DNA from: Burkholderia metallica
Lineage (GTDB): Bacteria; Pseudomonadota; Gammaproteobacteria; Burkholderiales; Burkholderiaceae
Assembly (NCBI RefSeq): GCF_902832845.1
Contig: NZ_CADFDB010000002.1
Coordinates: 62,001 to 126,000 of the forward strand
Length of the DNA stretch: 64,000 bases
Direction: 5' to 3'
Shown here: piece by piece, positions 23,815 to 44,181 of the stretch
How positions within the stretch are numbered: the first letter of the stretch is position 1
How the letters are laid out: each line of letters begins with the position of its first letter
Notes under the pieces: model-generated
Databases searched by the model: none
Seen by the model: only the letters and a program-made list of their open reading frames with translations
What the model was told of the DNA's origin: nothing
Made by a program: the position numbers and the translations under genes

Positions 23815-24573
23815 GGTTGTCTTCTCTCGGTTTGCGCCGGGCGGGGAGCGAAGGGGAGACGCTCGCGGCACGGGAGTGCGGCCGCGCATGCACCCCGGAG
23901 CGACATGCGGCGTTGCACGCATGCCTTCACAGGCTCCGGAGGCGAACCTTCTCTTTCCCGACGTCGAGTTAGTTCAGGAAATTAACCAAATAGTGCATTT
24001 TATATCAATCGACGAATTGCTTCATGTTTTAACTATCTGACGAGACGATGACGATGGCGCGCGCGGAGGGGATGCCGGGTTCTTCGCGGCACGCGCGCGA
24101 ACTGCGCGGCGGTTACGCCGAGCCGTTCGGTCGCACGTCCACGCATCAAGCCCGTGCCCACCCCACACAGCCTTGGATTACCTTGAGTCGATCAGGCTCT
24201 CGCATCGTCAGTGTCACCCATCCGGATGGCTGCATGGTCGGCTCCGCGCTCGCTCAACGAGCCGTCCAGCATGCCAGACGCATTTGCAATCGAAGGGCGA
24301 TGGTGCCGCGTCCATGGCGAAGTGGCCGGCAACGGGGTGGCGGGCGAAGCGTCGGCTCGATTGGGGAATCATAAAATTCCGAATAACGGGAATAGCGATA
24401 ATTTTTTGGGGATGCCGCTGGAATCGTGGATGTACGGAATTCCATGAAATTGTGAGGAATGGATCGGGTAAACGTGTGTGCGACAAACGTGACGTCGACG
24501 TTTTGCTGTTTGACAAATCCCGTAATTCGGGATTACAGTAAAACCCATCCCATTCAAACCGTCGAGCGGCCGC
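23815..24573. promoter_or_regulatory. Long divergent intergenic region with operator-like dyads
   Basis: 759 bp without a convincing gene, partly AT-rich. It holds the promoter of the TPP-enzyme operon. TTGACA (24510-24515) and TACAGT (24534-24539) form a sigma70-like pair with an 18-bp spacer, and the spacer contains AATCCCGTAATTCGGGATT (24516-24534). A weaker relative, ATTCCGAATAACGGGAAT, lies at 24376-24393. Confidence 0.5.
24516..24534. promoter_or_regulatory. Operator-like palindrome inside promoter spacer
   Basis: AATCCCGTAATTCGGGATT has perfect 7-base arms around TAATT and lies between -35 and -10 hexamers, 39 bp before ATG 24574. A bound protein would exclude RNA polymerase, so a repressor is expected; the operon-linked IclR protein (33684-34412) is the obvious candidate. 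Confidence 0.55.
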
Positions 24574-26154
24574 ATGAACATCCCACAGTTGGACACCGAT
24601 ACCGGAACCCGAAGCGGGGCGAGCGTCGTGCTCGAGACGGCGCGCGACGCCGGCGTCGACGTCTGTTTCGCCAATCCCGGCACCACCGAGATGCCGTTCG
24701 TCGGTGCGCTCGACACCGTGGCGGGCATGCGCTCGATCCTCGGGCTGTTCGAAGGCGTGTGCACGGGCGCCGCGGACGGCTACGGCCGCATGACCGGCAA
24801 GCCCGCGATGACGTTGCTGCATCTCGGGCCGGGCCACGCAAACGGCATCGCCAACCTGCACAATGCGCGCCGTGCGCGCACGCCGATCCTGAACATCGTC
24901 GGCGATCACACGCGCGATCATCTGAAGTACGACGCGCCGCTCACGTCGGACATCGAGTCGCTCGCCCGCCCCGTTTCGGTGTGGTATCGCAGCGTCGCGC
25001 GCGATACGGATCTCGCGACGGATACGGCCGACGCGATTTCGGCCGCGATGGGCGCGCAGCGCGGCGTATCGACGCTCGTGCTGCCGGTCGACCTCCAGTC
25101 GGCCAAGGTGCGCAATGCGGCGTCGCCCGCCGTCGTTCGCCCGGCCACGGTGTCGTTCGACCCCGCGCAGGTCGGGCGGGTCGCGGATCTGCTGCTCAGC
25201 GGCCATCGCGCGGTGCTGCTGATGGGCGGCCGTGCGTTGTCGGCGCGCGGGCAGCGCGCGGCGGCGCGCATCGCGGCGGCGACCGGCGCGACCTGCTTCA
25301 GCGAAACCTTCCCGGCGCGCGCCGAGCGCGGCGGCGGCCTGCCGGACATCGACCGGCTGCCTTACTTCCCCGAGCCGGCGCTGGCCGCGCTGGCCAGCCG
25401 GCGCGTGGTGCTGGCGGGCGCGCTCGCGCCCGTCACCTACTTCGGCTACGAAGGCATTCCAGGCGAACTCGCGCGCCCTGAAGACATCGTGACGCTCGCC
25501 GCGCCGGGCGACGCTGCCGACGATGCGCTCGAAGCGCTGGCGGATCGCATTGGCGCACCGGAGCACGCCGACGGCGTGCCAGTCGAATGCTGGCAGGTCG
25601 AGGAGGGGTCGCTGACGCCGCAGGCCGTCGGCCGCGTGCTGGCGAATGCGTTGCCGGACGACGCGATCGTGTCGATCGAGGGCGGCACGTGCGGCTATCC
25701 ATTCGTCACCGCGTCGGCGCGCGCCCGCCGTCACACGATCCTCACGAATACGGGCGGCGCGATCGGCCAGGGTTTGCCGGTGGCGCTCGGCGCCGCCGTC
25801 GCGTGCCCGGACCGCCGCGTGTTCGCGCTGCAGTCCGACGGCAGTGCGCAGTACACGATCCAGGCGTTGTGGACGATGGCGCGCGAGCGTTTGCCGGTCG
25901 TCGTGCTGATCGCGTCGAACCGGCGCTACGGCATCCTGCAGACCGAACTCGCGCGCAGCGGCTTGCCGGCCGACACGCCGCACGCCAGCCGCCTGACGCT
26001 GCTGGACGATCCGCCGATCGACTGGCTCGCGCTGTCGCGCGGCTACGGCGTGCCGGCCGAGCGCGCGAGCACGACGCAAGCGTTGGTGCAGGCGCTCGAC
26101 GACGCGCTCACGTATGCCGACGGGCCGACGCTCATCGAAATGTGCGTGGCCTGA
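24574..26154 (+). CDS. Thiamine-diphosphate-dependent enzyme (acetolactate synthase / benzoylformate decarboxylase superfamily)
   Basis: 526 residues in the three-domain PYR-middle-PP layout. The cofactor-activating glutamate is E60 in LFEGVCTGAADGYGRMTG, and the ThDP/Mg site is SDGSAQYTIQALWT...N at 421-449. CFANPGTTEMPFV near the N-terminus is typical of catabolic decarboxylases and C-C lyases. It would decarboxylate a 2-oxo acid or join or cleave a C-C bond. First gene of a nine-gene operon with an aldehyde dehydrogenase at its end, which could oxidise the aldehyde a decarboxylase makes. Confidence 0.9.
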   Translation: MNIPQLDTDTGTRSGASVVLETARDAGVDVCFANPGTTEMPFVGALDTVAGMRSILGLFEGVCTGAADGYGRMTGKPAMTLLHLGPGHANGIANLHNARRARTPILNIVGDHTRDHLKYDAPLTSDIESLARPVSVWYRSVARDTDLATDTADAISAAMGAQRGVSTLVLPVDLQSAKVRNAASPAVVRPATVSFDPAQVGRVADLLLSGHRAVLLMGGRALSARGQRAAARIAAATGATCFSETFPARAERGGGLPDIDRLPYFPEPALAALASRRVVLAGALAPVTYFGYEGIPGELARPEDIVTLAAPGDAADDALEALADRIGAPEHADGVPVECWQVEEGSLTPQAVGRVLANALPDDAIVSIEGGTCGYPFVTASARARRHTILTNTGGAIGQGLPVALGAAVACPDRRVFALQSDGSAQYTIQALWTMARERLPVVVLIASNRRYGILQTELARSGLPADTPHASRLTLLDDPPIDWLALSRGYGVPAERASTTQALVQALDDALTYADGPTLIEMCVA

Positions 26155-26202
26155 TCGCGCACCCGCTTTCCCCTTCAATCCGGACTCTCACCTTTCATCG
26201 CT

Positions 26203-27015
26203 ATGGATCTGCAACTCCACGGAAAAGCCGCGTTCATCACCGGCGGCAGCATGGGCATCGGCAAGGCCGTCGCGCTCGAGCTGGCCCGCGAAGGCGTCGA
26301 TGTCACCCTCGCCGCGCGGCGCATCGAACATCTCGAAGCGGCCGCCGCCGAGCTTCGCGCGGAACTCGCGCCGCTGGGCGACACGGCGGGTGCGATCCTG
26401 CCCGTCACGTTGGACACGACCGACATGGCGTCCGTCGAAGCGGCGATGGCCGCGAGCGTCGAGCGCTTCGGCCGGCTCGACATCCTGCTGAACGGCGCCG
26501 CGCATCCGGGCGGCCTCGTGCGGGCCGAGCTGGAACACGCCGACCCGCAGGGGCTGCTTCAGGACATCGACATCAAGGTGGTCGGCTACCTGCGCTGCGC
26601 GAAGGCGGCCGCGCCCTACATGCGGCGCAACGGCTTCGGCCGGATCGTCAACATCGGCGGCCTCACGGGCCGCGGCAGCAAGCAGCTGTCCGGCATGCGC
26701 AACGTCGCGATCGTGCACCTGACCAAGACGCTGTCCGACCAGCTCGGCCCGTTCGGCATCACGGTCAACACGATTCACCCGGGCGTCGTCGAGACGCCGC
26801 ACATCCACGAACTCTACGAGAAAGAGGCGCAGAAGCAGGGGCTCACGGCCGCGGAGGTCGAGGCGAACTACGTGAAGGTCACGCCGATCCGGCGCGTGCT
26901 GCAGCCGGAAGAAATGGGGTGGATCGTCGCGTTTCTCGCATCGCCGAAATCCGGCTCGATCACCGGCGAGTCGATCGGCTGCGACGGCGGCCTCACGCGC
27001 GGCATTTTTCTCTGA
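26203..27015 (+). CDS. SDR-fold protein lacking the canonical catalytic triad
   Basis: 270 residues. The cofactor end is canonical (TGGSMGIGKA at 13-22), and NGAA replaces NNAG. At the active site, where Ser-Tyr-x-x-x-Lys is expected, I read G152/G153, S163 and N167 in NIGGLTGRGSKQLSGMRNVA. So all three catalytic residues appear changed, although the surrounding HLTKTLSDQLGPFGITVN and HPGVVETP are well kept. It may be a divergent dehydratase-, epimerase- or binding-type SDR. The ATG has no clear Shine-Dalgarno sequence. Confidence 0.87.
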   Translation: MDLQLHGKAAFITGGSMGIGKAVALELAREGVDVTLAARRIEHLEAAAAELRAELAPLGDTAGAILPVTLDTTDMASVEAAMAASVERFGRLDILLNGAAHPGGLVRAELEHADPQGLLQDIDIKVVGYLRCAKAAAPYMRRNGFGRIVNIGGLTGRGSKQLSGMRNVAIVHLTKTLSDQLGPFGITVNTIHPGVVETPHIHELYEKEAQKQGLTAAEVEANYVKVTPIRRVLQPEEMGWIVAFLASPKSGSITGESIGCDGGLTRGIFL

Positions 27016-27030
27016 CACGAGGAGCATTTC

Positions 27031-28068
27031 ATGACCGCAACCGTACTGGTCGCCACGGCCGGGCAAGGCATCCTGCGCTCGAACGACGACGGCAAGACCT
27101 GGCATCGCCTCGGGCTCGCCGAGCCGATCGAATTCGACGGCATCGTCCGTGCGCTCGCAGTGGACCCCGCGACCCCGTCGCGCGTCTATGCCGGCGCCGA
27201 TGCGGGGCTGTGCATCAGCGAGGACGGCGGCGCGCACTGGTTTCGTCCGGAGAACCTGCTGAACGGGCAGACGGTCTGGTCCATCGCGATCGATCCGGCG
27301 AACCCCGCGGTGCTCTATGCGGGCACCGGCGCACCGTCGCGCGCCGCGCTGTACAAGTCGAGCGACGCGGGCCTGACGTGGGAGAGAACGGCGCCCGAGT
27401 TCCCCGAGTTCTGCGCGGGCGTCAATCGCCCGCGGTTACTGACGATCTGCGTGGATCCGGACGACGGCCGCAACGTCTGGTACGGCGTGGAGGAGGGCGG
27501 CGCGTGGCGCAGCCGCGATGCCGGCGCGAGCTGGGCGCGCGTGGACGGCCCCGGCACGGCGATCCGCAACAGCGACATCCATGCGATCGCCGTGCTGTCC
27601 GCCACGGCGGACCGGCCGAAAACCACGGTGCTGCTGACGGTCAACGCGGTGTACGTGAGCGAGGACGACGGGCAGACCTGGGATGCCAGACAGTCGCGCG
27701 ACCGCTTCGACGGGCTGTACTACACGCGCACGGTCGTGCAGCTGCCGGAGCCGGAAGGCGACCTGCTGATGGCGATCGGCGACGGCACGCCCGGCACCCG
27801 CAGCCGCATCTACCGGTCGACCGATCGCGGCTACGCGTGGCACGAGACGGACCTGCAGACGCCGCCGAATTCCACGTTCTGGGCGTTCGGCGTCCATGCG
27901 GCCCGGCCGGCGCTCGTCTATGCGGGCACCAAGTACGGGCACCTGTTCCGTTCGCGCGACGGCGGCCGGAACTGGGCCAAGGAGTGGCGCGATTTCAGCG
28001 AGATCACGGCCGTCGCGTGGACGCCGTTCGAAGCACCGCTCGTGGCGCACGCGCAGTCGATCAATTGA
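27031..28068 (+). CDS. Seven-Asp-box (BNR) beta-propeller protein
   Basis: 345 residues built almost wholly of Asp-box repeats S-x-D-x-G-x-x-W: residues 17-24, 63-70, 110-117, 161-168, 210-217, 263-270 and 308-315, spaced about 45-52 residues. Seven boxes imply a seven-bladed propeller, as in sialidase-like and photosystem-assembly relatives. There is no signal peptide, so it is probably cytoplasmic, unusual for this fold. A strong ACGAGGAG site precedes the ATG. Its position inside a catabolic operon suggests a lactonase, isomerase or scaffold role; no catalytic assignment is possible. Confidence 0.88.
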   Translation: MTATVLVATAGQGILRSNDDGKTWHRLGLAEPIEFDGIVRALAVDPATPSRVYAGADAGLCISEDGGAHWFRPENLLNGQTVWSIAIDPANPAVLYAGTGAPSRAALYKSSDAGLTWERTAPEFPEFCAGVNRPRLLTICVDPDDGRNVWYGVEEGGAWRSRDAGASWARVDGPGTAIRNSDIHAIAVLSATADRPKTTVLLTVNAVYVSEDDGQTWDARQSRDRFDGLYYTRTVVQLPEPEGDLLMAIGDGTPGTRSRIYRSTDRGYAWHETDLQTPPNSTFWAFGVHAARPALVYAGTKYGHLFRSRDGGRNWAKEWRDFSEITAVAWTPFEAPLVAHAQSIN

Positions 28069-28080
28069 GGGGAGCGAACG

Positions 28081-28596
28081 ATGACACCGTCCGACATCCA
28101 GCGGCACGCCGAGCGCGCGAACGCGAGCGGATTGCCGCTGCCGACCCCGCGCGTCCAGCGCACCCACCTGTCGCTGTTCGTGCGCGACCCCGTGCGCTCG
28201 AGCACCTGGTACGCCGAAGTGCTCGGCATGACGGAAACCGCGCGCGGCGAGCAGTGGGTGTTCATGTCCTTCGGCCAGAAGCACCATGACATCGCACTGA
28301 TCCGCGCGGCGTCCGACGCGGAGCTCGGCACGATCGGCCTGCAGCACTACGGGCTCGAGATCGCCGGCGGACTGACCGCACTGCGTCGCCTGTACGGCAT
28401 GCTGATTCGCCGCAACGTGCCGATCGTCAAGATCACCGATCACAAGGTCGGGATCGGCGTGTACTTCACGGACCCGGACGGCAACCGCCTCGAATTCTTC
28501 TGCGAAACCGTCACCGACGACGAAGAGGGCAAGCGCGTGCTGCACCGGTACAACGCACCGAGCGACCCCGCGCAACTCGATCCGCTGTTCGACTGA
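28081..28596 (+). CDS. VOC-superfamily protein (extradiol dioxygenase/glyoxalase-like)
   Basis: 171 residues, one vicinal-oxygen-chelate module pair. Likely metal ligands are H29 (QRTHLSLFV), H89 (GLQHYGLEI) and E138 (DPDGNRLEFF). The His-His-Glu set and YFTDPDGN strand fit extradiol ring-cleavage dioxygenases and related Fe/Mn enzymes, though such dioxygenases usually have two such units. GAGGGGAG precedes the start. With a flavin monooxygenase and an MhpC-like hydrolase downstream, meta-cleavage of a dihydroxylated ring is a reasonable guess. Confidence 0.85.
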   Translation: MTPSDIQRHAERANASGLPLPTPRVQRTHLSLFVRDPVRSSTWYAEVLGMTETARGEQWVFMSFGQKHHDIALIRAASDAELGTIGLQHYGLEIAGGLTALRRLYGMLIRRNVPIVKITDHKVGIGVYFTDPDGNRLEFFCETVTDDEEGKRVLHRYNAPSDPAQLDPLFD

Positions 28597-28646
28597 CGCG
28601 CCGGTCTTCCATTTCCCCATAGCCGACATTTAACAGAGGATTCCTG

Positions 28647-29252
28647 ATGAGCAAGATCGCCAATCTCGAAGGGTTTCATATCCGCAAGTGGTATACGCAG
28701 ATCGAGGATTCGCTCGCGAACGAATCCGGCCAGCTCGCGGACGGCGAGCCGCTGCGCAAGATCGTGATCGCCGCGGCCGTTCACAACCCGTATGCGGGGC
28801 GCTTCAGCGAAAACCTCGACGACCTGGTGCGTCCGTCGCCCGCGCTCGGCAAAGAGTTCGCGCGGCGTATCGAAGCGCTCGCCGCGGACCGTGCGATCGA
28901 GAGTTACGGCAAGGCCTGCCTGGTCGGCTCGGCCGGCGAATACGAACACGGCAACGCGTTCCTGACGTCGATCTTCGCGGAGCCGATCCGGGCGGCGCTG
29001 GGCGGCGGGAAGTCGTGGGTGCCGTCGAGCGGCAAGCGCGGCCCGGTCAATACCGTGATCGACGTGCCGCTCGCGCACAAGGATGCGCTCTACGTGCGCT
29101 CGCACTACGACACGGTGACGTGTCTGTTCCCCGATGCGCCCAACGACGACGAAGTGCTGGTGATCTTCGCGTTCGCGACGCGCGGCCGCCTGCATGCGCG
29201 GCTCGGCGGGCTGAAGGCAAGCGAGATCGTCGGCAACGACGGTCTGGTCTGA
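28647..29252 (+). CDS. DUF1185 / 'amino acid synthesis' family protein
   Basis: 201 residues of the AA_synth (DUF1185) family. Seen: MSKIANLEGFHIRKWYT, IAAAVHNPYAGRF, SYGKACLVGSAGEYEHGNAF and VIDVPLAHKDALYVRSHYD. The biochemical role of the family is not established to my knowledge; it recurs in aromatic and amino-acid catabolic operons. AGAGGA precedes the ATG. The conserved His, Glu and Tyr residues in EYEHGNA suggest an enzyme rather than a structural protein. Confidence 0.82.
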   Translation: MSKIANLEGFHIRKWYTQIEDSLANESGQLADGEPLRKIVIAAAVHNPYAGRFSENLDDLVRPSPALGKEFARRIEALAADRAIESYGKACLVGSAGEYEHGNAFLTSIFAEPIRAALGGGKSWVPSSGKRGPVNTVIDVPLAHKDALYVRSHYDTVTCLFPDAPNDDEVLVIFAFATRGRLHARLGGLKASEIVGNDGLV

Positions 29253-29279
29253 TCGCCGATGCAGGCCGGGGAGGAGAGG

Positions 29280-30158
29280 ATGAATACGGCATCCGTGAAG
29301 GATGGGTGGGTCGACAGCGACGGGCTGCGGCTGCGCTACGTGAGCTGGGGGCGCGACGATGCACCGGCCGTGGTGATGCTGCACGGGTTGCGCAGCTACG
29401 CGCACACGTGGGAGCCCGTCGCCGACGCGCTGGTCGACCGCTACCGGGTCGTGGCGCTCGATCAGCGCGGCCGCGGGCTGAGCGACTGGGATCCGCAGCG
29501 GGACTATTACGCGACGGCCTACGTGCGCGATCTCGACGCGCTGGTGCGCGCGCTCGGCCTGCAACGATTCGTGCTGGTCGGGCACTCGATGGGCGGCGCC
29601 AATGCGTTCGTCTATGCCGCAGCGCAGCCGGAACGGCTCGCCGGCCTCGTGATCGAGGACATGGGCCCCGGTGCGTCGGCCGGTTCGCAGGGTTCGGAGC
29701 GCATCAAGCGCGAGCTGAAGGAAACGCCGGACGCGTTCGCGTCGTGGGACGACGCGCGCGCGTTCTGGCGACGCCAGCGGCCGAACATCGCGGAATCCAC
29801 GCTCGATTCGCGCGTCGCGTACTCGCTGAAAGAGGATGCGCAAGGGCGGATCGTGTGGCGGCACGACGCCGACGGGATTGCGGCAGCGCGGCTCGCCGCG
29901 ACGCCGGAGCAACTCGTCCATCTGTGGCCGCTGGTCCTCAACCTGCACGTGCCGACGCTGCTGTTGCGCGGCGGCGCATCGGATTTCCTGTCCGCGGACG
30001 TGGCGGCCGAAATGGTCGCGGCCAATGCCGGAATCGACCGGATCGACATTCCCGGCGCGACGCACTACGTGCATGACGATCAACCCGCCGCGTTCAACCG
30101 CGCATTGCGCACGTGGCTCGATCGTCTCGACGATCCGGCGTGGCGCACGGGAGGCTGA
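29280..30158 (+). CDS. Alpha/beta hydrolase (MhpC-like)
   Basis: 292 residues. VMLHGLRSYAHTWEP, the GHSMGG elbow with S103, and a late GATHYVHDD His fit C-C bond or ester hydrolases of aromatic meta-cleavage pathways. The strong site GGGGAGGAG precedes ATG 29280. Gene spacing to the flavin monooxygenase is 3 bp. If the operon degrades an aromatic ring, this is the candidate ring-fission-product hydrolase. Confidence 0.9.
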   Translation: MNTASVKDGWVDSDGLRLRYVSWGRDDAPAVVMLHGLRSYAHTWEPVADALVDRYRVVALDQRGRGLSDWDPQRDYYATAYVRDLDALVRALGLQRFVLVGHSMGGANAFVYAAAQPERLAGLVIEDMGPGASAGSQGSERIKRELKETPDAFASWDDARAFWRRQRPNIAESTLDSRVAYSLKEDAQGRIVWRHDADGIAAARLAATPEQLVHLWPLVLNLHVPTLLLRGGASDFLSADVAAEMVAANAGIDRIDIPGATHYVHDDQPAAFNRALRTWLDRLDDPAWRTGG

Positions 30159-30161
30159 CGC

Positions 30162-31793
30162 ATGAGCGCGAACCAACCGGAACGGACCTCGGTCGCGATC
30201 GTCGGCGCGGGGCCGAACGGCGCGGCGATGGCGAACCTGCTCGGACTCTATGGCGTCGCGACGGTGATCATCGAGAAGGCGCCGCAGATCGTCGAGTTTC
30301 CGCGCGCGGTCGGCATCGACGACGAGGCGCTGCGGCTGTTCCAGACCGCCGGCCTCGCCGACGAACTGAGCCGCGACATCATCCAGAACGTGCCGCTGCG
30401 GATGTTCAAGGCGAACGGCGAATGCTTCGCCGACATCCGCCCGTCGATGCGCGAATTCGGCTGGTGGCGGCGCAACATCTTCATGCAGCAGCTGGCCGAG
30501 CGAACGCTGCGCGACGGGCTGGCTCGCTACCCGCATGTGTCGCTGCGGACCGGCGAAGAAGTGGTCGGTGTCGCACAGGACGACGAACGCGTCACACTGC
30601 AGGTGCGCCGCGCCGACGGGCGGCACTACGCGCTCGAGGCCGACTACGTGGTGGCGGCCGACGGCGGCCGCAGCCCGATGCGCGAGTGGCTCGGCATCAA
30701 GCTGGCCGGCACCACCCATCCGATGAAGTGGGTGGTGGTCGACGTGAAGAACGCCGGGCTCGACCAGCCGTGCACCGCGCTGAACTGCGACCCGCGCCGT
30801 CCGAACGTCTGCATCTACCTGCCGTTCAATTTCCGGCGCTGGGAGTTTCTCGTGTTCCCGCACGAGGATGAAGAAGCGATCGCGCGGCCGGAATCGATCC
30901 GCGCGTTGATCGCGCCGTACGTCGACGATGTCGAGCGCCTCGAGATCGTGCGCGCGCGGACCTATACGCACCATTCGCGCATCGCCGAGCGCTTCGTCGT
31001 CGGCCGCGTGGCGCTCGTCGGCGATGCGGCCCACCTGACGCCGCCGTGGATCGGCCAGGGCCTGAATGCGGGCTTGCGCGACGTCGGCAATCTCGCGTGG
31101 AAACTGGCGGGCGTCGTCAACGGTGCGTTGCATCCCGGCGTGATCCACACGTACGAATCGGAGCGGCGCGATCACGCGAAGGCGATGATCGACCTCGCGG
31201 ACACGTTCGGCGCGATGCTGATGCCGACCAGCCGGCTCGTCGCGTTCCTGCGCGATCGTTTCCTCGGGCTCGCGCGGTTTGCGCCCGGCCTGAAGGACTA
31301 CATCCTGCAGATGCGTTTCAAGCCAATGCCGAGCTATACGCGGGGCGTCGTGCTGCCGGGGGTGCCGGATGGTGCAGTCGGCAGGATGATCGCGCAGCCC
31401 GACGTCGAGACGGCCGACGGCGTGCGCCGCAAGCTCGACGACGTGCTCGGCCTGTGGTTCTCGATCGTCGGCTGGCAATGCGATCCGCAGGCGTGCCTGA
31501 GCGACGACGACCGCGCGTACTGGGCAGCGCTGGGCGCAACGTTCATTCAGGTCAATCGTTCGCGCAGCGGCACCGGCCGAGCGGGCCGGTTGGCCAGCGG
31601 CTACGGCAGCACGTGCGTCGAAGACGTCGACAACGCACTGGCGACCTGGTTCGACCGCCATCCGGGCCCGCTCGTGGTGGTGCGCCCGGATCGCTACGTG
31701 GCCGCGCAGACGGATGCCGCGGGGATCGCCGGTGTGACCGCGGCCTTTCAGGCGTTCGCGCCGCGACAACGGGAGGAAGTCGATGTTTGTTGA
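30162..31793 (+). CDS. FAD-dependent aromatic monooxygenase (MhpA/PheA-type)
   Basis: 543 residues. The FAD dinucleotide fold has GAGPNG at 15-20, the middle motif AADGGRSPMR, and GDAAHLTPPWIGQGLN at 287-302. These three motifs define group A flavoprotein hydroxylases such as 3-(3-hydroxyphenyl)propionate hydroxylase. It would hydroxylate a phenolic ring with NAD(P)H and O2. GGGAGG precedes the ATG. Its stop overlaps the NIPSNAP gene by 11 bp. Confidence 0.92.
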   Translation: MSANQPERTSVAIVGAGPNGAAMANLLGLYGVATVIIEKAPQIVEFPRAVGIDDEALRLFQTAGLADELSRDIIQNVPLRMFKANGECFADIRPSMREFGWWRRNIFMQQLAERTLRDGLARYPHVSLRTGEEVVGVAQDDERVTLQVRRADGRHYALEADYVVAADGGRSPMREWLGIKLAGTTHPMKWVVVDVKNAGLDQPCTALNCDPRRPNVCIYLPFNFRRWEFLVFPHEDEEAIARPESIRALIAPYVDDVERLEIVRARTYTHHSRIAERFVVGRVALVGDAAHLTPPWIGQGLNAGLRDVGNLAWKLAGVVNGALHPGVIHTYESERRDHAKAMIDLADTFGAMLMPTSRLVAFLRDRFLGLARFAPGLKDYILQMRFKPMPSYTRGVVLPGVPDGAVGRMIAQPDVETADGVRRKLDDVLGLWFSIVGWQCDPQACLSDDDRAYWAALGATFIQVNRSRSGTGRAGRLASGYGSTCVEDVDNALATWFDRHPGPLVVVRPDRYVAAQTDAAGIAGVTAAFQAFAPRQREEVDVC

Positions 31794-32115
31794 GCAACGC
31801 ACGTACACGCTGGTGCCGGGCGGCGTCGCCGATTATCTGCGGCTGTACGCGGAATGCGGCCGCAAGGCGCAGGAGCAGGCGCTCGGCACGATGGTCGGCT
31901 GCTTTGCGACGGAAGTCGGGCCGCTGAACCAGCTCGTCTATCTGTGGGCGTTCGATTCGCTGGACGATCGCGCGCGGCGACGTGCCGTGCTGATGGCCGA
32001 TCCCGAGTTCAGGACGTTTCGCGGCAAGGTCCGGCATCTGCTCGTCAGACAGGAAAACCAGATTCTCCGGCAGGAAATCGGCGGCCTGTTGCGTGCGCCG
32101 AACCCGGCCGCGTGA
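31783..32115 (+). CDS. NIPSNAP-family protein
   Basis: 110 residues, a single ferredoxin-like alpha/beta domain. MFVEQRTYTLVPGGVADYLRLY and LVYLWAFDSLDDRARRRA are typical of NIPSNAP proteins. Small bacterial members often sit in aromatic-degradation operons with an unresolved role. It overlaps the monooxygenase gene by 11 bp, and GGGAGGA precedes the ATG, so it is probably made in proportion to that enzyme, perhaps as an accessory. Confidence 0.87.
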   Translation: MFVEQRTYTLVPGGVADYLRLYAECGRKAQEQALGTMVGCFATEVGPLNQLVYLWAFDSLDDRARRRAVLMADPEFRTFRGKVRHLLVRQENQILRQEIGGLLRAPNPAA

Positions 32116-32169
32116 TGCGGTCGTCGCACCGTCCGCGCCCATCGTGCAGTCTCTACCGAGGTATCCGTC

Positions 32170-33651
32170 TTGATTCCGTTTACACCGTTGACGTCGCCTG
32201 TGACGCCCGACGCGCCACGCGATTACGCGCCGCTCCATCTGTATGTCGATGGCCGGTTCCTGCAGGCCGACGGCCGGCGCACGCAGCCCGTTCTCGATCC
32301 GGGAACCGGCCGCGTGCTCGGCGCGCTGCCGCATGCGACACCGGAAGATATCGACGCCGCGGTGCACGCCGCGCACCGCGCATTCGCGGCGTGGCGGCGC
32401 GAGTCGCCGCTCGTGCGCTCGGACATCCTGCGCCGCGCCGCCGCGCTCGTGCGGGAGCGGGCCGAAACGATCGGCCGTCACATCACGATGGACCAGGGCA
32501 AGCCGCTTCGCGAGGCGATCGCCGAGGTCGCGTCGTCGGCCGAACAGCTCGAATGGCACGCGGAGGAGGGGCGCCGCACCTACGGCCGCGTCGTTCCATC
32601 GCGTTCTCCCGACGTCGCGCAGACGGTATTGCGGGAACCGATCGGCGTGTGCGCGGCGTTTTCTCCGTGGAATTTCCCGTTCAGCCAGGCCATGCACAAG
32701 ATTGCGGCCGCGCTCGCGTGCGGGTGCACGCTGGTACTGAAAGGGCCCGAGGAATCGCCGAGCGCGATCGTCGCGCTCGCACGCATCTTTCACGATGCCG
32801 GATTGCCCCCGGGGTGCCTGAACATCGTCTGGGGCGTACCGGGCGAAGTATCGAAGCAACTGATCGAGTCGCCGCTGGTACGAAAGATTTCGTTCACCGG
32901 CTCGGTGCCGGTCGGCAAGCAACTGGCCGCGCTTGCCGCGTCGTACATGAAGCGCATGACCATGGAACTGGGCGGGCATGCGCCGGTGCTCGTCTGCGCG
33001 GATGCGGACATCGCGCGCGCCGCGCCGATGCTGGCCGCGTACAAGTTTCGCAATGCCGGGCAGGTCTGCGTGTCGCCGACCCGGTTTTTCGTGCAACGCC
33101 CGGTGTTCGAGCGGTTCGTCGCCGCGTATCTCGAGGCGGTCGGCAAGATTCGCGTCGGCTACGGGCTGGAAGAGGCGACCACGATGGGGCCGCTCGCGCA
33201 TGCGCGACGGGTATCCGAGATCGACGCGTTCGTCGCCGACGCCCGGGCGAAAGGGGCGGAGATTGCCGCGGGCGGAACGGCGCTGCGGGGACCGGGGCAC
33301 TATTTCGCACCGACGGTCGTGCTGGGCCCGGCGCGCGACACGCGCCTGATGAACGACGAACCGTTCGGTCCGATCGTCGGGATCGTGCCGTTCGACGCGC
33401 TCGACGACGCGCTCACCGAAGCCAACCGCTTGCCGTTCGGCCTCGCGTCGTATGCGTTCACCGAATCCGCACGCAACGCGCACCGGATCAGCCGCTCGCT
33501 CGAAGCCGGCATGGTCAACATCAATCACTTCGGGATGGGGCCGGCCGAGATCCCGTTCGGCGGCGTGAAGGACAGCGGCTTCGGCAGCGAGGGCGGAACG
33601 GAGACGTTCGACGGTTACCTGGTCACCAAGTTCGTCACGCAGATGAATTGA
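32170..33651 (+). CDS. NAD(P)-dependent aldehyde dehydrogenase
   Basis: 493 residues starting at a TTG codon with GAGG upstream. Catalytic C300 ([11 protein letters not shown]), general-base E266 ([10 protein letters not shown]) and the oxyanion Asn region FSPWNFP are present. It resembles succinate-semialdehyde and aromatic aldehyde dehydrogenases. It would oxidise the aldehyde formed by the TPP enzyme or by ring-fission chemistry. It is the last gene of the operon and faces the IclR gene tail to tail. Confidence 0.92.
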
Positions 33652-33683: not shown

Positions 33684-34412
33684 TCAGATGGCGTCGCCGA
33701 TCCGGGCGGTGGCGTCGATCAGGAGTTTGCCGAGCACGCGCTCGTCGAACAGCGCGAAGTGTTCGGCGCGAAAGACGAGCGACAGGCTGCTGTTGATTTC
33801 GCCGCTGCTGGCAGTGCGGATCGGCGCGGCGATGCCGACGAACCCGGCGTCGAGCTCGCCGCGCGAGATCCAGTATCCCGCGTCGGCGATCTGCTGGCAG
33901 GCGCGCCAGAACTGCGTCCAGTCGGCCGCGAACTCGCCGAGTTCGTCGTTGTGCCGTTCGTGCAGGCGCTTCAGGCGCGCACGCGACATCGCGGCGACGA
34001 TCACTTTCGACGACGCACCCAGGAACAGCGGCATGATGCGGCCGCGACCGAAACCCAGCTGCAGGTTATCCGCGCCGGTTTCGTGCATGACGTTGATGAT
34101 CTGCTCGTCAAACAGCGTCGACACGAGCGCATCGCCGCCGGTGACCTGAACCAGCTTCTGGATGACGGGTTTCGCGGCGGTGAGCATCGGGTCCGACTGC
34201 CGCATGTTGTAGTCGAGATGGATGATGCGCGGGCCCAGCGTATAGCGGCCGTTGCTGCCGACGAGCAGGCCGACGGACGCCAGTTCCTTCACGTAGCGGT
34301 AGCAGGTGGTCCGCGAAAAGCCCATGTGTTCGGCGATTTCCTCGGCCGTCATCGACGTCGCGGACGAAGAGAAGACGTCGAGGATGGACAGCATTTTGGT
34401 GAGGCTCGACAT
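33684..34412 (-). CDS. IclR-family transcriptional regulator
   Basis: 242 residues. The N-terminal helix-turn-helix is MTAEEIAEHMGFSRTTCYRYV, followed by an IclR effector domain to the end. It is convergent with the catabolic operon and divergent from the porin gene at 34727. It probably controls both; the palindrome at 24516-24534 is a candidate target. The inducer is unknown. Confidence 0.92.
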   Translation of the reverse strand: MSSLTKMLSILDVFSSSATSMTAEEIAEHMGFSRTTCYRYVKELASVGLLVGSNGRYTLGPRIIHLDYNMRQSDPMLTAAKPVIQKLVQVTGGDALVSTLFDEQIINVMHETGADNLQLGFGRGRIMPLFLGASSKVIVAAMSRARLKRLHERHNDELGEFAADWTQFWRACQQIADAGYWISRGELDAGFVGIAAPIRTASSGEINSSLSLVFRAEHFALFDERVLGKLLIDATARIGDAI

Positions 34413-34726
34413 GACGTGATCCGGGATTCAGGCGGCTTGCGGCAATGAAACGAGAAGGACGAACGCGGTTCGCGCGGCCGGGTTGCGGCATGGCGTGCGG
34501 CACCGCGACAGACAGGGTCGTAGTCTAACTTAAGTCGAGCTGGCGGGAACCGGAGCCGTGTCGGCGAATGCTCGGGAAGCAGGCCGGCCGAGGTGCAGCG
34601 GATCGCCGGGCCGTCTATTGATATGGATTCCTATTTTAACCGGAAAGGTCGTGCCGGATCGATGTCGTTGCCGTGGCGATCGGCTCACGCGCGCATCGGC
34701 CGGGAAAATTCGATGAGGAGAAGACG
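34413..34726. other. Intergenic region between IclR and porin genes
   Basis: 314 bp holding the divergent promoters of the IclR gene and the porin. There is a short AT-rich patch near 34615-34640. I see no ORF or convincing operator here. Confidence 0.45.
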
Positions 34727-35782
34727 ATGAAAGCGTGGTTCCGGATGGTGGCATTGTGCGGATGCGGTGCCGTTGCGCCGACGTTCGCACAATCGAGCGT
34801 GACGCTCTACGGTTCGCTGGACACGGGGGTGACCTATACGAGCGACGTGGCAGCTGCGCCACGCGGCGGGCGCCAGCTCGCGCTGCAGGCGGGCGTGTCG
34901 CGCAACGACGTGTGGGGCCTGACGGGCAGGGAGGAACTCGGCGGCGCCAATTTCGCCGTGTTCCGGCTCGAAAGCCAGTTCCAGACGTCGGACGGGACGC
35001 TGACCGTGCCGGGCGCCGCGTTCAGTTCGCAAGCGTACGTCGGGCTCGGCGGCGACTGGGGCACCGTGACGCTCGGCCGCCAGTTCGATTTCGTCGGCGA
35101 TCTCATGCCGTCGTTCGCGATCGGCGCGAACACGCCGGCCGGCCTGCTCGCGTGGGGGTTGCCGGCGAATGCGTCGGCCGGCGGCGCACTCGACAACCGC
35201 GTGTGGGGCGTCCAGGTGAACAACGCGGTGAAGTATGTGAGTCCGACGTTCGGCGGTATCGCGTTCGGCGGTATGTGGGGGTTCGGCAACGTGCCCGGCT
35301 CGGTCGCGCGCAGCAGCGTGCAGAGCGCGATGCTGTCCTACACGCAGGGCGCGTTCAGCGCCGCGCTCGCCTATTTCGGCCAGCACGACGTGACCGCCGG
35401 CGGCAATCTTCGCAATTTCTCGGGCGGAGCCGGCTACAACTTCGACCGGCTTCGCGTCTTCGGCATGGTGTCGGACGTGCGGATCGGCGCAGCCGCACCG
35501 TTGCGGGCCACCACCTACGACGCCGGGCTGACCTATTCGGTCACGCCGTCGTTGCAACTGGGCGGCGGCTTCCAGTTCCAGCAGCGCGGCGGCGACATCG
35601 GTTCGGCCAATCAGGTCACGTTGAGTGCCGATTATTCGCTGTCGAAGCGTACCGGCCTGTACGCGGTGCTCGCACGCGGGCACGACAGCGCGTACGGTGC
35701 CCAGGTCGAGGCCGCGCTCGGCGGCGCGGCGGCCGGCTCGACGCAGACTGCGGTGCGCGTCGGCGTGCGGCATCAATTCTGA
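34727..35782 (+). CDS. General (OmpC-like) porin
   Basis: 351 residues. A 21-residue signal ends PTFA-QSSVTLYGSLDTG, and the chain ends RVGVRHQF with the terminal Phe needed for barrel assembly. GAGGAGAAG precedes ATG 34727. Placed next to the IclR gene of the nine-gene operon, so it may be its outer-membrane entry route. Confidence 0.92.
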   Translation: MKAWFRMVALCGCGAVAPTFAQSSVTLYGSLDTGVTYTSDVAAAPRGGRQLALQAGVSRNDVWGLTGREELGGANFAVFRLESQFQTSDGTLTVPGAAFSSQAYVGLGGDWGTVTLGRQFDFVGDLMPSFAIGANTPAGLLAWGLPANASAGGALDNRVWGVQVNNAVKYVSPTFGGIAFGGMWGFGNVPGSVARSSVQSAMLSYTQGAFSAALAYFGQHDVTAGGNLRNFSGGAGYNFDRLRVFGMVSDVRIGAAAPLRATTYDAGLTYSVTPSLQLGGGFQFQQRGGDIGSANQVTLSADYSLSKRTGLYAVLARGHDSAYGAQVEAALGGAAAGSTQTAVRVGVRHQF

Positions 35783-35850: not shown

Positions 35851-36999
35851 TCAGAACCGATGCATCATCCCGACGCGCAAGGTCAGCTGATTGCGGCCCG
35901 ACGACTGCCCGGCGGTGCCGAGCACGTGCGCATCGTCGAAATCGGTACCGGTGTTGCCGGTTGCATGCTGGTACGCGGCCTGGATGTACGTCGAGGTCCG
36001 CTTGCTGAGATCGTAGTCGAGCATCGTCGACAACTGGTGCCAGCTCGGCGATGCGTCGCCCGCCGCCGTCGTGACATGGGCGTGCGTGTAGGTGTACGCC
36101 GCGCCGAGCCAGACGTCCGGCCGGAAGAAGTACTGGCCGTTGACCTCGAAGTTGTCGAATTTCCACGCGTGCTGCGAGCCCGCCGCAGGCTGGTTCGCGA
36201 AGTAGAGATTCGACTCGGGCCGATACACGTCGACGTGCGAATACGCGGCGGACAGCGTCAGCTTGTCGCTGAACTTGTACGACGCGCCGGCATCGATGTT
36301 CTGCTGCGCGCGGCCGCTGAAGACCGTATCGTCGCTCGACAATGCGCCGCCCGCGTTCGCGCCGCCGTTGCTGGCCTTCAGGTACGCGACGGCCGCGGAG
36401 AACGCGCCCATCTGATATTGCAGCGCGGCACTGTGCACCCGGTTCCGGGCGAAGCCGCCCGCCTGGTTCGAGAGCCCGTAGAGCACTTCGCCCTTGAAGC
36501 CGGCGTACGCGGGCGACACGTACTTGATGCTGTTCTGGATGCGGTAGTCCCAGTCGGCATTGTCGTTGTCGTACGGGTGCGCGCCGAAATCGCCGAGCCA
36601 GTTGCCGGTGGCCGTGAACGGGCTCCACATGTCGAGCGTGGGATCGTACTGGCGGCCGAGCGTGAGCGTGCCGAATCGGTCGGAATCGAGCCCGACGTAC
36701 GCCTGCCTGCCGAACATCCGCGACGTCACGCCGAGCGCCCCGGTGCTCGCGTTGAAGCCGTTCTCGAGCTGGAACAACGCTCTCAGGCCGCCGCCGAGGT
36801 CTTCCGTGCCTTTCAGCCCCCAGTTGCTGCCGACGGTGTCGCCGCTCACCATCTGGTAGGCCTTGCCGCCGCCCGCGTTGCTCGTGAAATTGACGCCTTC
36901 GTCGATCAGGCCATAGAGCGTCACGGTGCTTTGTGCATGGGCAGTGAGGCCGAATCCCATGGCGCCGGCGGTCGAAACGACCGCGATCATCTTCTTCAT
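35851..36999 (-). CDS. General (OmpC-like) porin
   Basis: 382 residues. The signal peptide ends GLTAHA-QSTVTLYGLIDEG and the C-terminus is RVGMMHRF. GGAG precedes ATG 36999. It converges with the porin gene at 34727 and lies downstream of the cytochrome b561 gene, from which a terminator separates it. Confidence 0.92.
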   Translation of the reverse strand: MKKMIAVVSTAGAMGFGLTAHAQSTVTLYGLIDEGVNFTSNAGGGKAYQMVSGDTVGSNWGLKGTEDLGGGLRALFQLENGFNASTGALGVTSRMFGRQAYVGLDSDRFGTLTLGRQYDPTLDMWSPFTATGNWLGDFGAHPYDNDNADWDYRIQNSIKYVSPAYAGFKGEVLYGLSNQAGGFARNRVHSAALQYQMGAFSAAVAYLKASNGGANAGGALSSDDTVFSGRAQQNIDAGASYKFSDKLTLSAAYSHVDVYRPESNLYFANQPAAGSQHAWKFDNFEVNGQYFFRPDVWLGAAYTYTHAHVTTAAGDASPSWHQLSTMLDYDLSKRTSTYIQAAYQHATGNTGTDFDDAHVLGTAGQSSGRNQLTLRVGMMHRF

Positions 37000-37113
37000 T
37001 GTCGATCTCCAGGTGCGTGCCGGTATGGCGGTGCGGTACCATTCCCGACGGCGTGCCGGTGCCCCGGACGGCCGGGACGGTCCGCATATAGTTAGCAAAA
37101 CGAAATGTATGGA

Positions 37114-37192: not shown

Positions 37193-37756
37193 TTACAGCA
37201 TGCGCCGCAGTACGTCGTTGTCGCGGTTCGAGTCGAGGAACCGGTGTTTCAGCGCGGCGAGAATATGCAGCACGACGAGCACGAGCAGTGTGTAGGCCAG
37301 TGTCCGGTGCAGCCACTGGAATGCCGCGAACCAGTGGTCGTTCTTCGGCAGCAGCTCGGGGACGCGGACGAAGAAGAACGGCACGCCGTCGCTCTGCGTA
37401 TACGTGCTGGACATCGAATAGCCCATCAGCGGCACGATGATCGCGAGCGCATACAGCAGGTAGTGCGCGATCTTGGCGAGCTTGCGGTCCAGCTTCGGCA
37501 GGCTCGACGGCAGCGGCGGCAGCGGCTTCATCGACCGGATCGCCAGTTGCGTCAGGACCACCAGCAGCGTGAGCACGCCGAACTCCTTGTGCGTCGGGTA
37601 GTACCAGTCGAACTTGGCCGGCAGGTTGTCGTCGAGCCGGACCATCGTCCATCCGGTCCAGAGCTGCGCGCCGATCAGGATCGCCCTGACCCAGTGCAGC
37701 ACCCGCAGCACGAGCGGATATTTCTCGACCGTGAATGCAATGGCCTGGTTTTCCAT
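37193..37756 (-). CDS. Cytochrome b561 family protein
   Basis: 187 residues with four membrane helices. Candidate haem-ligand histidines are in VLRVLHWVRA, YYPTHKEFG, KIAHYLLYAL and LVVLHILAALKHRF, the usual bacterial b561 pattern (PF01292). It probably passes electrons between quinone and a periplasmic partner, or protects against superoxide as in E. coli CybB. It follows the aminotransferase gene on the same strand, about 160 bp downstream. Confidence 0.9.
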   Translation of the reverse strand: MENQAIAFTVEKYPLVLRVLHWVRAILIGAQLWTGWTMVRLDDNLPAKFDWYYPTHKEFGVLTLLVVLTQLAIRSMKPLPPLPSSLPKLDRKLAKIAHYLLYALAIIVPLMGYSMSSTYTQSDGVPFFFVRVPELLPKNDHWFAAFQWLHRTLAYTLLVLVVLHILAALKHRFLDSNRDNDVLRRML

Positions 37757-37917
37757 GTGGCTAGTCTTCCTTGAAAGCGAAATTGCGACGGGCGGCACGC
37801 CCATCGTCGACGTCGATGCCCCGCGGCGACCTTCGTCGAGCCGGGGCCCGGGCTGAGCCGGATGGCGGTGCGCACGAACCCGCGACGAAAGATCCGTGCG
37901 CCCGGCTGTCCGCGCGG

Positions 37918-39282
37918 TCAGGCGATCGATCGCGAATCCGCACAGCACTCCTGCAGCGCCTCGCGCAACGTCGCCGCGATGAAGTCGGCCTCGCTCTGCT
38001 GCAGCGTCAACGGCGGCGACATCACGACCTTGTTGGCGATCGCCCGGACCAGGACCCCGCGCCGGCGCGCGGCATCGGCCACGCGTGCCGCGAACCCGTT
38101 GCCCGGGTCGAGCGGCGTGCGGCTGGCCTTGTCGGTGACGAGATCGAGCGCCAGCATCAGCCCCTTGCCGCGGACGTCGCCGACGGTCTCGAAGTCGGCC
38201 TTCAGCGGCAGCAGCTGCTCGAGCAGCCGCTGGCCGACCCGTGCCGCGTTACCGGGCAGATCCTCGGCTTCGACGATGTCGAGCACCGCGAGCGACGCGG
38301 CGCACGCGAGCGGATGCCCGCTGTACGTATAGCCGTGCATGATCACGTGCGAGAAGCCCGCGCCCTGTTCGATCGCCTGCGCGATGCGCCCGTTGTACAG
38401 CGTCGCGCCGAGCGGTACGTAGCCGGCGGAAATGCCCTTGGCGACACACAGGATATCCGCGGCGACACCCCATCCGCGGCTACCGAGCAGGCTGCCGGTG
38501 CGGCCGAAACCGGTGACCACCTCGTCGGCGATCAGCAGGATGCCGTTGCGGTCGCACACGGCGCGCACGCGCGCCCAGTAGTCGGCGGGCGGCACGATCA
38601 GCCCGCCTGCGCCCTGTACCGGCTCCGCGACGAACGCGGCGATGGTCTGCGGGCCATGGAACGCGATCGTTTCCTCGAGCTGCCGGATGCAATGCTCGAC
38701 GAGTTGCTGCGGATCGTCGCAGTTCCACGGGTTGCGATAGAGCCACGGCGTGTCGAGCAGCACGCAGCCGGGCAGCAGCGGACCGTGATTATAGTGATAG
38801 ACGCCGTTGCCGCCGATCGACGTGCCGCCGACGTGCACGCCATGGTAGCCGTTGCGCAGCGACAGGAATTTCGTGCGCGACGGCTCGCCTGCGGCGACCC
38901 AATACTGGCGCGCCATCTTGAGCGCCGTCTCGATCGCGTCGGAGCCGCCGCTGCCGAACATCACCCGCTGCATGTCCTCCTGCGCGAACATCGCGCACAG
39001 GCGGTCGGCCAGGTCGTACACGCGCGGATGGGCGACGCCGTCGAAGGTCTGGTAGTACGACAGCTCGTCCATCTGGCGGGCGATCGCGGCCTTCACTTCC
39101 GGCCGGTTGTGGCCGACGTTGACGTTCCAGAGTCCGCCGACGCCGTCGAGCATGCGGTGGCCCTCGACGTCGTACACGTAGTTGCCGTCGCCGCGCTCGA
39201 TGATCACGGTGGGGGTCGTGTGCCCGGCGGCTGCCGAGCTCATCGGGTGCCAGAATCGCTTTTGTCGCTTTTGGTAGTCCAT
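37918..39282 (-). CDS. Class III omega-aminotransferase
   Basis: 454 residues of the class III PLP aminotransferase family. K282 in ILCVAKGISAGY binds PLP and D253 in LIADEVVTGFGRTG holds the pyridine N; GSGGSDAIETALKM binds phosphate. It would move the omega-amino group of an amine or omega-amino acid to pyruvate or 2-oxoglutarate, giving an aldehyde. The aldehyde dehydrogenase gene lies just upstream in the same operon and the APC permease before that: uptake, transamination, oxidation. Confidence 0.93.
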   Translation of the reverse strand: MDYQKRQKRFWHPMSSAAAGHTTPTVIIERGDGNYVYDVEGHRMLDGVGGLWNVNVGHNRPEVKAAIARQMDELSYYQTFDGVAHPRVYDLADRLCAMFAQEDMQRVMFGSGGSDAIETALKMARQYWVAAGEPSRTKFLSLRNGYHGVHVGGTSIGGNGVYHYNHGPLLPGCVLLDTPWLYRNPWNCDDPQQLVEHCIRQLEETIAFHGPQTIAAFVAEPVQGAGGLIVPPADYWARVRAVCDRNGILLIADEVVTGFGRTGSLLGSRGWGVAADILCVAKGISAGYVPLGATLYNGRIAQAIEQGAGFSHVIMHGYTYSGHPLACAASLAVLDIVEAEDLPGNAARVGQRLLEQLLPLKADFETVGDVRGKGLMLALDLVTDKASRTPLDPGNGFAARVADAARRRGVLVRAIANKVVMSPPLTLQQSEADFIAATLREALQECCADSRSIA

Positions 39283-39337
39283 GGTGTATCTCTCACGAAG
39301 TGCTTGAAGACAGTGCGGCGCGGCGTGCGCCGCGGAA

Positions 39338-40783: not shown

Positions 40784-40896
40784 GATGTCCGTGTTTCACA
40801 GGGGCGAGTCGTCGGGCCGCGCCGGTTGCGGCGGTGAGGGCGGTTGCGGCACGGCTTCGACGTCGGGTTCACTGTATGTCGCTGAAACGGCGGGCC

Positions 40897-40946
40897 TTGT
40901 CCGCTATCGGCAATCGTTGCCGCGTGACCGGGATAGGGAATACCCG
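40897..40946. promoter_or_regulatory. Shared cis element, copy 1 (upstream of aldehyde dehydrogenase)
   Basis: TTGTCCGCTATCGGCAAT at 40897-40914 and GGGAATACCCG at 40936-40946. The same two blocks with the same spacing recur at 42702-42750 upstream of the permease. It is a candidate binding site for the EutR-like AraC regulator encoded at 42779. Confidence 0.6.
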
Positions 40947-41048: not shown

Positions 41049-41057
41049 GGGCGGCGG

Positions 41058-43723: not shown

Positions 43724-44181
43724 GGTGTGGCTAATGCATCCCGTCTCGAAATCGATGCTGGCCGAAGCCGGCTCATGCTGCCCGGGCGCGGTAGTACGAC
43801 CGCGTCATGCGCGATCCGCCTGGGTGACTTCCGGTCGGTGCGGTGCAACACGCCGGGCCCCGCTGACGATCATATCCAGAAAAAAACACCGGGTGACGCG
43901 GAAGACACACCGCGTTGCCGCTCACCGGGCGGGCGCGCCTTTGCATGGCGATGGTTTTGTAGCGGAGATGAAAGACAACCCGTAATTCAGGACTGTGGCA
44001 AATATTTGTTGGAGCTAGGTGCGCACAATATATATATAATCCCATTATAAGGGATTTTGATTCGTTCGTAGAGGGAGTTTACGCAGGGGGCCGCCCGATG
44101 CGACGAGCACGAAAACCGCGCACAGGCGAGGCGCCCATGCGTCGGTCGATCCAGGTCGACTTTCCGCGCGCCGGCCCGTCG
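43724..44181. other. Intergenic region with AATCCC-N7-GGGATT dyad
   Basis: 458 bp with no gene. AATCCCATTATAAGGGATT at 44038-44056 has the same AATCCC-N7-GGGATT form as the operator at 24516-24534, and ACCCGTAATTC at 43978-43988 is a related half. On the minus strand the dyad contains TATAAT, so it may mark a promoter for the AraC gene. Confidence 0.4.

Follow-up and report, generated by a model that had tools for sequence, protein, structure and literature searches.

A conserved gene set of Burkholderia metallica that may form one regulon for the catabolism of an aromatic amine

What is degraded by a set of nine genes in which enzymes of known catabolic families stand beside a beta-propeller, a DUF1185 protein and a NIPSNAP protein? 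The genes (24574-33651, all on the + strand) lie in a stretch of 64,000 nucleotides from the 7.55 Mb genome of Burkholderia metallica, referred to here as the window, and a preliminary description of this DNA had read them as an operon for a possibly undescribed catabolic pathway. That is still the best reading: the genes keep their order in different phyla, and no description of this gene set was found in the open-licence literature searched. In Burkholderia, the nine genes are part of a larger unit, and we propose, with evenly divided confidence, that the whole locus forms a single regulon with which the cell grows on an aromatic primary amine, by way of hydroxylation and extradiol cleavage.

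The operon itself was found as it had been described. The genes are separated by gaps of 48, 15, 12, 50, 27, 3, -11 and 54 bases, and their products, together with that of the neighboring regulator gene, match the Pfam families TPP (thiamine pyrophosphate) enzyme N/C, SDR (short-chain dehydrogenase/reductase), BNR/Sortilin repeats, glyoxalase/VOC, AA_synth (PF06684, the same family as DUF1185), alpha/beta hydrolase, FAD_binding_3, NIPSNAP, Aldedh and IclR (Table 1). The nearest named loci are those of Burkholderia (B. lata, B. cepacia, B. ambifaria and others), with DUF1185 proteins 96-99% identical. The seven boxes claimed for the propeller were all counted (S-x-D-x-G-x-x-W), and the monooxygenase called MhpA-like passes the curated model for that type. 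The name MhpC-like proved loose for the hydrolase, which keeps alpha/beta hydrolase motifs and reached no cut-off among the 25 models listed of 28, scoring 38.8 bits against a cut-off of 462 for the BphD model TIGR03343. Among the 25 best NCBIfam models listed for each, the operon aldehyde dehydrogenase (ALDH) and the SDR-fold protein, like the hydrolase, reached no curated cut-off.

The suggestion that these genes belong together beyond chance was confirmed in other genomes. A search of the genome collection with the DUF1185 protein yielded 258 relatives, of which the best 80 were kept, a sample that favors the nine-gene operon; ten of these loci were incomplete and were left out, and the following counts are over the 70 fully covered relatives. 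Greedy clustering of open reading frames, in which some antisense frames were picked, was used solely to find neighbors, which were re-checked by tblastn. A core of seven genes (TPP enzyme, SDR, propeller, VOC, DUF1185, hydrolase and monooxygenase) was found within 8.5 kb in 62 of the 70, with the hydrolase gene about 8 kb off in four of the 62 (loci L046, L062, L063 and L078). The same search, for which the preliminary description had called, found all nine genes in 32 of the 70 relatives; the NIPSNAP gene is present in 32 and an ALDH gene in 57, making these the less constant members of the operon. Carriers include Burkholderia, Pandoraea, Paraburkholderia, Trinickia, Janthinobacterium, Roseateles, Herbaspirillum, Achromobacter, Variovorax, Pseudomonas, Acinetobacter, Streptomyces and Nonomuraea. 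Eight loci miss one or more core genes, among them L035 (without hydrolase and monooxygenase), L061 (without hydrolase) and five that have DUF1185 without the other six (L024, L049, L058, L066 and L071), so DUF1185 alone is no marker of the operon.

Within genera, the gene set is accessory and patchy, yet conserved. The propeller profile matched 16 of the 65 genomes from the genus to which the window belongs, 32 of 298 genomes of a second genus and four of 398 genomes sampled across the phylum, these being the window's own and three of the second genus. This second genus (that of genome G350) was taken as Pseudomonas because all five of five stretches match named Pseudomonas loci best, with 87-96% DNA identity to the closest. 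The VOC profile found the same 32 genomes of this genus at E < 1e-70, the remaining matches being no better than 6.9e-13.

The nine genes are real, but as an outline of the unit they are too small in Burkholderia, where the functional unit also includes a module of transaminase, second ALDH, APC permease and AraC regulator genes (37945-43723). In all 15 other Burkholderia loci compared, the nine genes and those for the IclR protein, the cytochrome, the transaminase, the second ALDH and the permease stand in the same order; the AraC gene is present in 14, and the stretch of the remaining locus (L099) ends where it would begin. Of the 65 Burkholderia genomes, the 16 in which the transaminase was detected (E < 1e-200) are the very ones with the propeller; none of the 49 others has it. 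In the second genus, the transaminase (E < 1e-190) was detected in 21 of 298 genomes. The propeller is present in 19 of the 21, with a distance of 7.4-9.8 kb between the starts of the two genes in 18 of these. As the arrangement of the module in this genus is unlike that in Burkholderia, the pairing of operon and transaminase is not simply one inherited block. The closest solved relative of the window's transaminase, 5LH9, matches over the whole protein length with 774 bits; this enzyme (5LH9/5LHA), from an uncultivated Pseudomonas, was studied as a biocatalyst, and the portion of its description available names no native pathway for it.

A different enzyme for the removal of amino groups accompanies the operon in actinobacteria. 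A primary-amine oxidase gene was found near the operon in nine of 16 actinobacterial loci, one of which was the source of the query, eight of the nine also having an actinobacterial APC permease, and the single oxidase that was scored passes model NF008559 (873.9 bits, cut-off 651). With a transaminase in some loci and an amine oxidase in others, two unrelated routes of amino-group removal therefore accompany the same core. In a census of the flanks of the 62 seven-gene loci, which reach at most 10 kb from DUF1185, a transaminase was found in 16, a primary-amine oxidase in eight (24 together) and a sulfatase in eight. In addition, a gene resembling 2-oxopent-4-enoate hydratase (127.6 bits, below the cut-off of 409) follows the monooxygenase gene in Pseudomonas, which is what a meta-cleavage route would need.

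The operon and the amine module also share a palindrome, AATCCCG-N5-CGGGATT, which was first spotted in two of 16 upstream sequences and then tested by genome-wide and locus searches. It occurs exactly in precisely the 16 of 65 Burkholderia genomes that have the operon, and all 19 exact sites are at this locus, 15 of them immediately upstream of the TPP gene (some 2.5 kb ahead of the propeller gene) and four at the end of the amine module; a reversed control pattern was never matched exactly in these 65 genomes. In 12 of the 14 other Burkholderia loci that have the AraC gene, the 700 bases preceding it contain a site with at most two mismatches, compared to 37 of 3000 segments of 700 bases placed at random in the same loci with the true sites included. 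Outside the genus, a one-mismatch copy precedes the TPP gene in Pandoraea, and copies with two mismatches are located there in Paraburkholderia kururiensis. One regulator, probably the IclR protein, would bind this palindrome and govern both gene sets through it. A copy with three mismatches (34410-34428) overlaps the start of the IclR gene itself, and the same or a near-identical site is found at that start in eight of 15 Burkholderia loci and in Burkholderia pyrrocinia; this could be autoregulation or mere coding conservation.

The residues of the VOC protein point to ring cleavage. H29, H69, H89, H121, Y128 and E138 are invariant in all 12 aligned sequences, and when the profile is aligned to the catechol 2,3-dioxygenase (1MPY) catalytic domain, H69, H121, Y128 and E138 pair with H199, H246, Y255 and E265. 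In 1MPY, H199, H246 and Y255 are catalytic, and H214 and E265 belong to the metal site. A gap puts H89 two columns off H214, and the alignment does not extend to H29; each of the two is paired with a histidine of the VOC protein 9U42, making a 2-His-1-carboxylate metal site of H29, H89 and E138 plausible. A PROSITE-type extradiol signature is present in 71 of 74 VOC homologues. The protein is below the curated cut-off for catechol 2,3-dioxygenase (37.6 versus 320 bits), and as judged from these alignments it appears to match most of the extradiol active site directly. Matches of the VOC protein and of profiles to RecA were discarded as summed weak repeats.

The SDR-fold protein and the propeller are, with DUF1185, the strange parts of what otherwise looks like a pathway of aerobic meta-cleavage catabolism. 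As the preliminary description had it, the SDR is atypical: S163 and N167 are present in 72 of 72 family members, the window's included, and stand in the Tyr and Lys columns of four canonical SDRs in an alignment in which the Ser column is not clearly aligned. The glycine-rich nucleotide motif TGG...GIG is retained, and the two residues sit in a strongly conserved stretch, NIGGLTGR...SG(M/L)RN. With Ser and Asn in place of the canonical Tyr and Lys, this protein is unlikely to be a standard dehydrogenase. Because the propeller has numerous invariant residues along its repeats, an active site is suggested for it, as opposed to a scaffold role.

For the pathway itself, we infer every reaction, the order of the steps, the regulator and the class of substrate. 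Porins and the APC permease would import the amine, the class III transaminase would remove the amino group from it, with pyruvate or another oxo acid as acceptor, and the second ALDH would convert the resulting arylacetaldehyde to the acid; uptake and nitrogen removal are proposed on the grounds of co-occurrence and family. The flavin monooxygenase would then hydroxylate the phenolic ring adjacent to a hydroxyl group, and the single-domain VOC enzyme would open it by extradiol (meta) cleavage, a step proposed because of its active-site residues. The alpha/beta hydrolase may split or de-lactonise the cleavage product, joined in Pseudomonas by the hydratase-like enzyme, and the SDR-fold protein, propeller, DUF1185 and NIPSNAP would act on intermediates. 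Finally, the TPP enzyme would decarboxylate a 2-oxo acid and the operon ALDH oxidize the aldehyde so formed, these end steps being proposed from the families of the two enzymes. Of the chemistry named in the preliminary description, hydroxylation is upheld by a curated cut-off and ring cleavage by residues of the active site; the C-C hydrolysis assigned to the alpha/beta hydrolase is putative, and decarboxylation is kept as a proposal because the model that the TPP enzyme passes is named acetolactate synthase.

This proposal is supported by the co-occurrence of the transaminase, the actinobacterial amine oxidase, the palindrome confined to the locus, the StyD-like second ALDH, the VOC residues and the hydratase-like gene of Pseudomonas. 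A more specific version, which we advance tentatively and with somewhat less than even confidence, is that the pathway is a new one for an aromatic amine, with middle-step enzymes that lack known precedent: the SDR-fold protein (rebuilt around its conserved SG(M/L)RN site), the propeller and DUF1185 would process the extradiol product before the pair of TPP decarboxylase and ALDH takes the place of the aldolase end usual in meta-cleavage. One genome of the second genus contains a cluster (L125, 3718-11268) in which a distant small VOC protein and flavin monooxygenase are joined by three proteins identified by eye from their sequences, one of the FAA type and two like E1 and E2 of pyruvate dehydrogenase; this is in keeping with a need to process some 2-oxo acid after such ring cleavage.

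Several results weigh against the amine regulon as proposed. The co-occurrence within Burkholderia is not independent of descent, which the Fisher tests ignore. The AraC-side palindrome is exact in only four genomes, the window's own copy having two mismatches, and with two mismatches allowed the pattern has 26 places in the window's genome compared to one for the control pattern, so that away from the locus such sites carry little meaning. For the TPP enzyme, the model passed bears the name acetolactate synthase, and the score for the benzoylformate decarboxylase model NF005485 is too low (213 bits, cut-off 493); both ALDHs and the hydrolase are under curated cut-offs. DUF1185 also stands alone in Collimonas and Glaciimonas, and a Bradyrhizobium locus (L036, 8930-18090) has the propeller, DUF1185, the hydrolase and the TPP enzyme without the SDR, VOC or monooxygenase. 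The Collimonas and Glaciimonas proteins are about 70% identical to the window's, with the operon genes absent from the stretches covered (L045, which is incomplete, L049, L058, L066 and L071). The Bradyrhizobium locus, which sits among several TctC genes, is a natural half-pathway that could separate two groups of functions. Also on this side of the balance, 13 of the 32 operon genomes of the second genus are without the transaminase at the threshold used, and 30 of the 62 seven-gene loci have no transaminase, amine oxidase or sulfatase in their flanks, 14 of the 30 having an APC permease; absence from flanks that reach at most 10 kb is weak evidence, and other feeders probably exist.

These last two counts are also what would be expected if the substrate of the nine genes is a phenolic acid that exchangeable feeders can supply (the amine module, the actinobacterial amine oxidase or a sulfatase/TctC set), as are the eight of 62 loci (from Achromobacter, Pigmentiphaga, Ramlibacter and a Burkholderiales metagenome-assembled genome) whose flanks hold a sulfatase and neither transaminase nor amine oxidase. 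We regard this as a possible, if rather unlikely, explanation, since in Burkholderia the operon and the amine module are inseparable (16 of 16) and share a palindrome that is exact nowhere else in 65 genomes. A start of the mandelate type, in which deamination of a beta-hydroxy amine (octopamine, for instance) gives a hydroxymandelate, the oxo acid of which is decarboxylated by the TPP enzyme to an aldehyde that the ALDH oxidizes, with the ring steps last, would account for the benzoylformate decarboxylases found as best solved relatives of the TPP enzyme, which keeps a Glu and a His of their type, and for the adjoining TPP and ALDH genes of the Pseudomonas and Streptomyces loci. The missed benzoylformate decarboxylase model, the absence of Tyr and Lys from the SDR that would oxidize mandelate, and the absence of any mandelate dehydrogenase from the families identified in the operon and the amine module make such a start improbable. 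Least probable is degradation of a flavonoid or coumarin by a pathway of the fde, ifc or hcd type, which would share with the operon the trio of class A flavin monooxygenase, VOC-type ring dioxygenase and hydrolase, and in the case of hcd also DUF1185; the ifc cupins and the hcd alcohol dehydrogenase, cupin and flavin mononucleotide (FMN) reductase are absent from the operon families, and amine genes are no part of these clusters in the portions of the descriptions available.

The amine regulon can be set beside described systems. The mhp pathway for 3-(3-hydroxyphenyl)propionate resembles it in the MhpA-like monooxygenase and, in the Pseudomonas version, the MhpD-like hydratase (below cut-off); mhp uses another family of extradiol enzyme and ends with aldolase and acetaldehyde dehydrogenase, whereas the operon has a TPP enzyme and an ALDH. 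The other systems were compared by description, as far as the accessible parts of the sources extend. The hcd region for 7-hydroxycoumarin in Pseudomonas mandelii 7HK4 is one inducible region with a flavin monooxygenase (HcdA), a type I extradiol dioxygenase (HcdB), a hydrolase (HcdC) and a DUF1185 protein (HcdD), four functions common to hcd and the operon; the HcdD gene is induced, and attempts to demonstrate the stimulation proposed for HcdD were unsuccessful (PMC6222606, PMC7913881). HcdC is of the FAA family, and hcd has a zinc alcohol dehydrogenase, a cupin and an FMN reductase, while the TPP enzyme, SDR, propeller, NIPSNAP, ALDH and amine genes are found in the operon and its module and not in hcd. 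Also bearing on the role of DUF1185, TgnF is said to stimulate TgnE, unlike the outcome for HcdD. The ifc (isoflavone, Variovorax V35) and fde (naringenin, Herbaspirillum) clusters share a flavin adenine dinucleotide (FAD) monooxygenase, a glyoxalase-fold ring dioxygenase and an alpha/beta hydrolase with the operon; ifc has the cupins IfcD1/D2, and both are described without TPP enzyme, propeller, DUF1185 or amine genes (PMC11069340, PMC11303751). As described, none of hcd, ifc and fde has the TPP enzyme, the propeller, the odd SDR, NIPSNAP or the amine module, and the naringenin, isoflavone and coumarin pathways were kept as analogues only. The hin pathway for histamine in Pseudomonas putida U resembles the locus in its front of permease, transaminase, ALDH and FAD monooxygenase, but was rejected since its lower-pathway genes differ: it has amidases, an aspartate ammonia-lyase and an enamine deaminase, none of which is found in the operon or amine module, and the gene list available shows no extradiol enzyme (PMC6467879).

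Taken as a primary aromatic amine regulon, a gene set of Burkholderia, Pseudomonas, Achromobacter, Variovorax and Streptomyces would gain a likely class of substrate, a regulon boundary and an operator-like site. The orphan families DUF1185, NIPSNAP, the SDR without catalytic Tyr and Lys and the seven-Asp-box propeller would join one testable pathway, with DUF1185 here accompanied by a defined set of partner enzymes.

Table 1. Positions in the window of the operon, the amine module and the associated regulatory sites, with the basis of each assignment
Feature	Position	Strand	Basis
TPP enzyme, PRK07586 type, proposed 2-oxo acid decarboxylase	24574..26154	+	NF005760 (named acetolactate synthase large subunit), 710.5 bits, cut-off 363
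SDR-fold protein without catalytic Tyr/Lys (S163, N167)	26203..27015	+	Pfam, family alignment
Seven-Asp-box beta-propeller, many invariant residues	27031..28068	+	Pfam, motif count, alignment
VOC protein, probable single-domain type I extradiol dioxygenase	28081..28596	+	H29, H69, H89, H121, Y128, E138
DUF1185/AA_synth protein (PF06684)	28647..29252	+	Pfam, 222.9 bits versus gathering score 27; solved relatives 2QTP, 3BYQ
Alpha/beta hydrolase	29280..30158	+	Pfam; motifs GHSxGG, SDfL, HYvHDD retained
Class A flavin monooxygenase, PRK06183-5 (MhpA-like)	30162..31793	+	NF004831, 850 bits, cut-off 546
NIPSNAP protein	31783..32115	+	Pfam; 11-base overlap with monooxygenase gene
Aldehyde dehydrogenase (operon ALDH)	32170..33651	+	Closest to succinate-semialdehyde dehydrogenases, TIGR01780, 446.6 bits, below cut-off 646
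IclR-family regulator, possible reader of the palindrome	33684..34412	-	Pfam; convergent to operon, 32 bases away
Porin	34673..35782	+	Retained in 14/15 other Burkholderia loci
Porin	35851..37098	-	Retained in 14/15 other Burkholderia loci
Cytochrome b561-type protein	37193..37774	-	Retained in 15/15 other Burkholderia loci
Class III amine transaminase, PRK07481 type	37945..39279	-	NF005683 (named hypothetical protein), 758.9 bits, cut-off 575
Second ALDH	39338..40783	-	Closest to phenylacetaldehyde dehydrogenase StyD, NF045736, 587 bits, below cut-off 800; best of models listed
APC-family amino acid/amine permease	41058..42494	-	Family match; 15/15 other Burkholderia loci
AraC-family regulator	42779..43723	-	Closest to EutR, 138 bits, below cut-off 319; 14/15 other Burkholderia loci
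Perfect palindrome AATCCCGTAATTCGGGATT, probable operator	24516..24534		Inside operon promoter, between hexamers
Second palindrome copy, 2 mismatches, upstream of operon	24375..24393		Copy at same place in L082, L092
Sigma-70-like promoter TTGACA-18-TACAGT, just upstream of gene 1	24510..24539	+	About one expected by chance in stretch scanned
Palindrome copy, 2 mismatches	44038..44056		315 bases upstream of AraC gene

Other genes adjoin the operon or the amine module. In eight loci (L038, L040, L042, L043, L048, L054, L075 and L079), a sulfatase gene (PehA-like, below cut-off in L043, 9332-11170) and TctC genes are next to the operon, neighbors that suggest a sulfate-ester feeder. In the window, genes for a nitrile hydratase (alpha chain 46203-46895, with a CSLCSC motif; beta chain 45471-46163) and a CobW-type gene adjoin the amine module (44182-46895, all on the - strand); these were rejected as part of the unit, as an MFS transporter gene lies beyond AraC in eight of 12 other Burkholderia stretches. 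Directly upstream of the operon, the window has a pyrroloquinoline quinone-dependent dehydrogenase gene (21388-23820, - strand), and Burkholderia pyrrocinia has a TonB-dependent receptor gene there instead.

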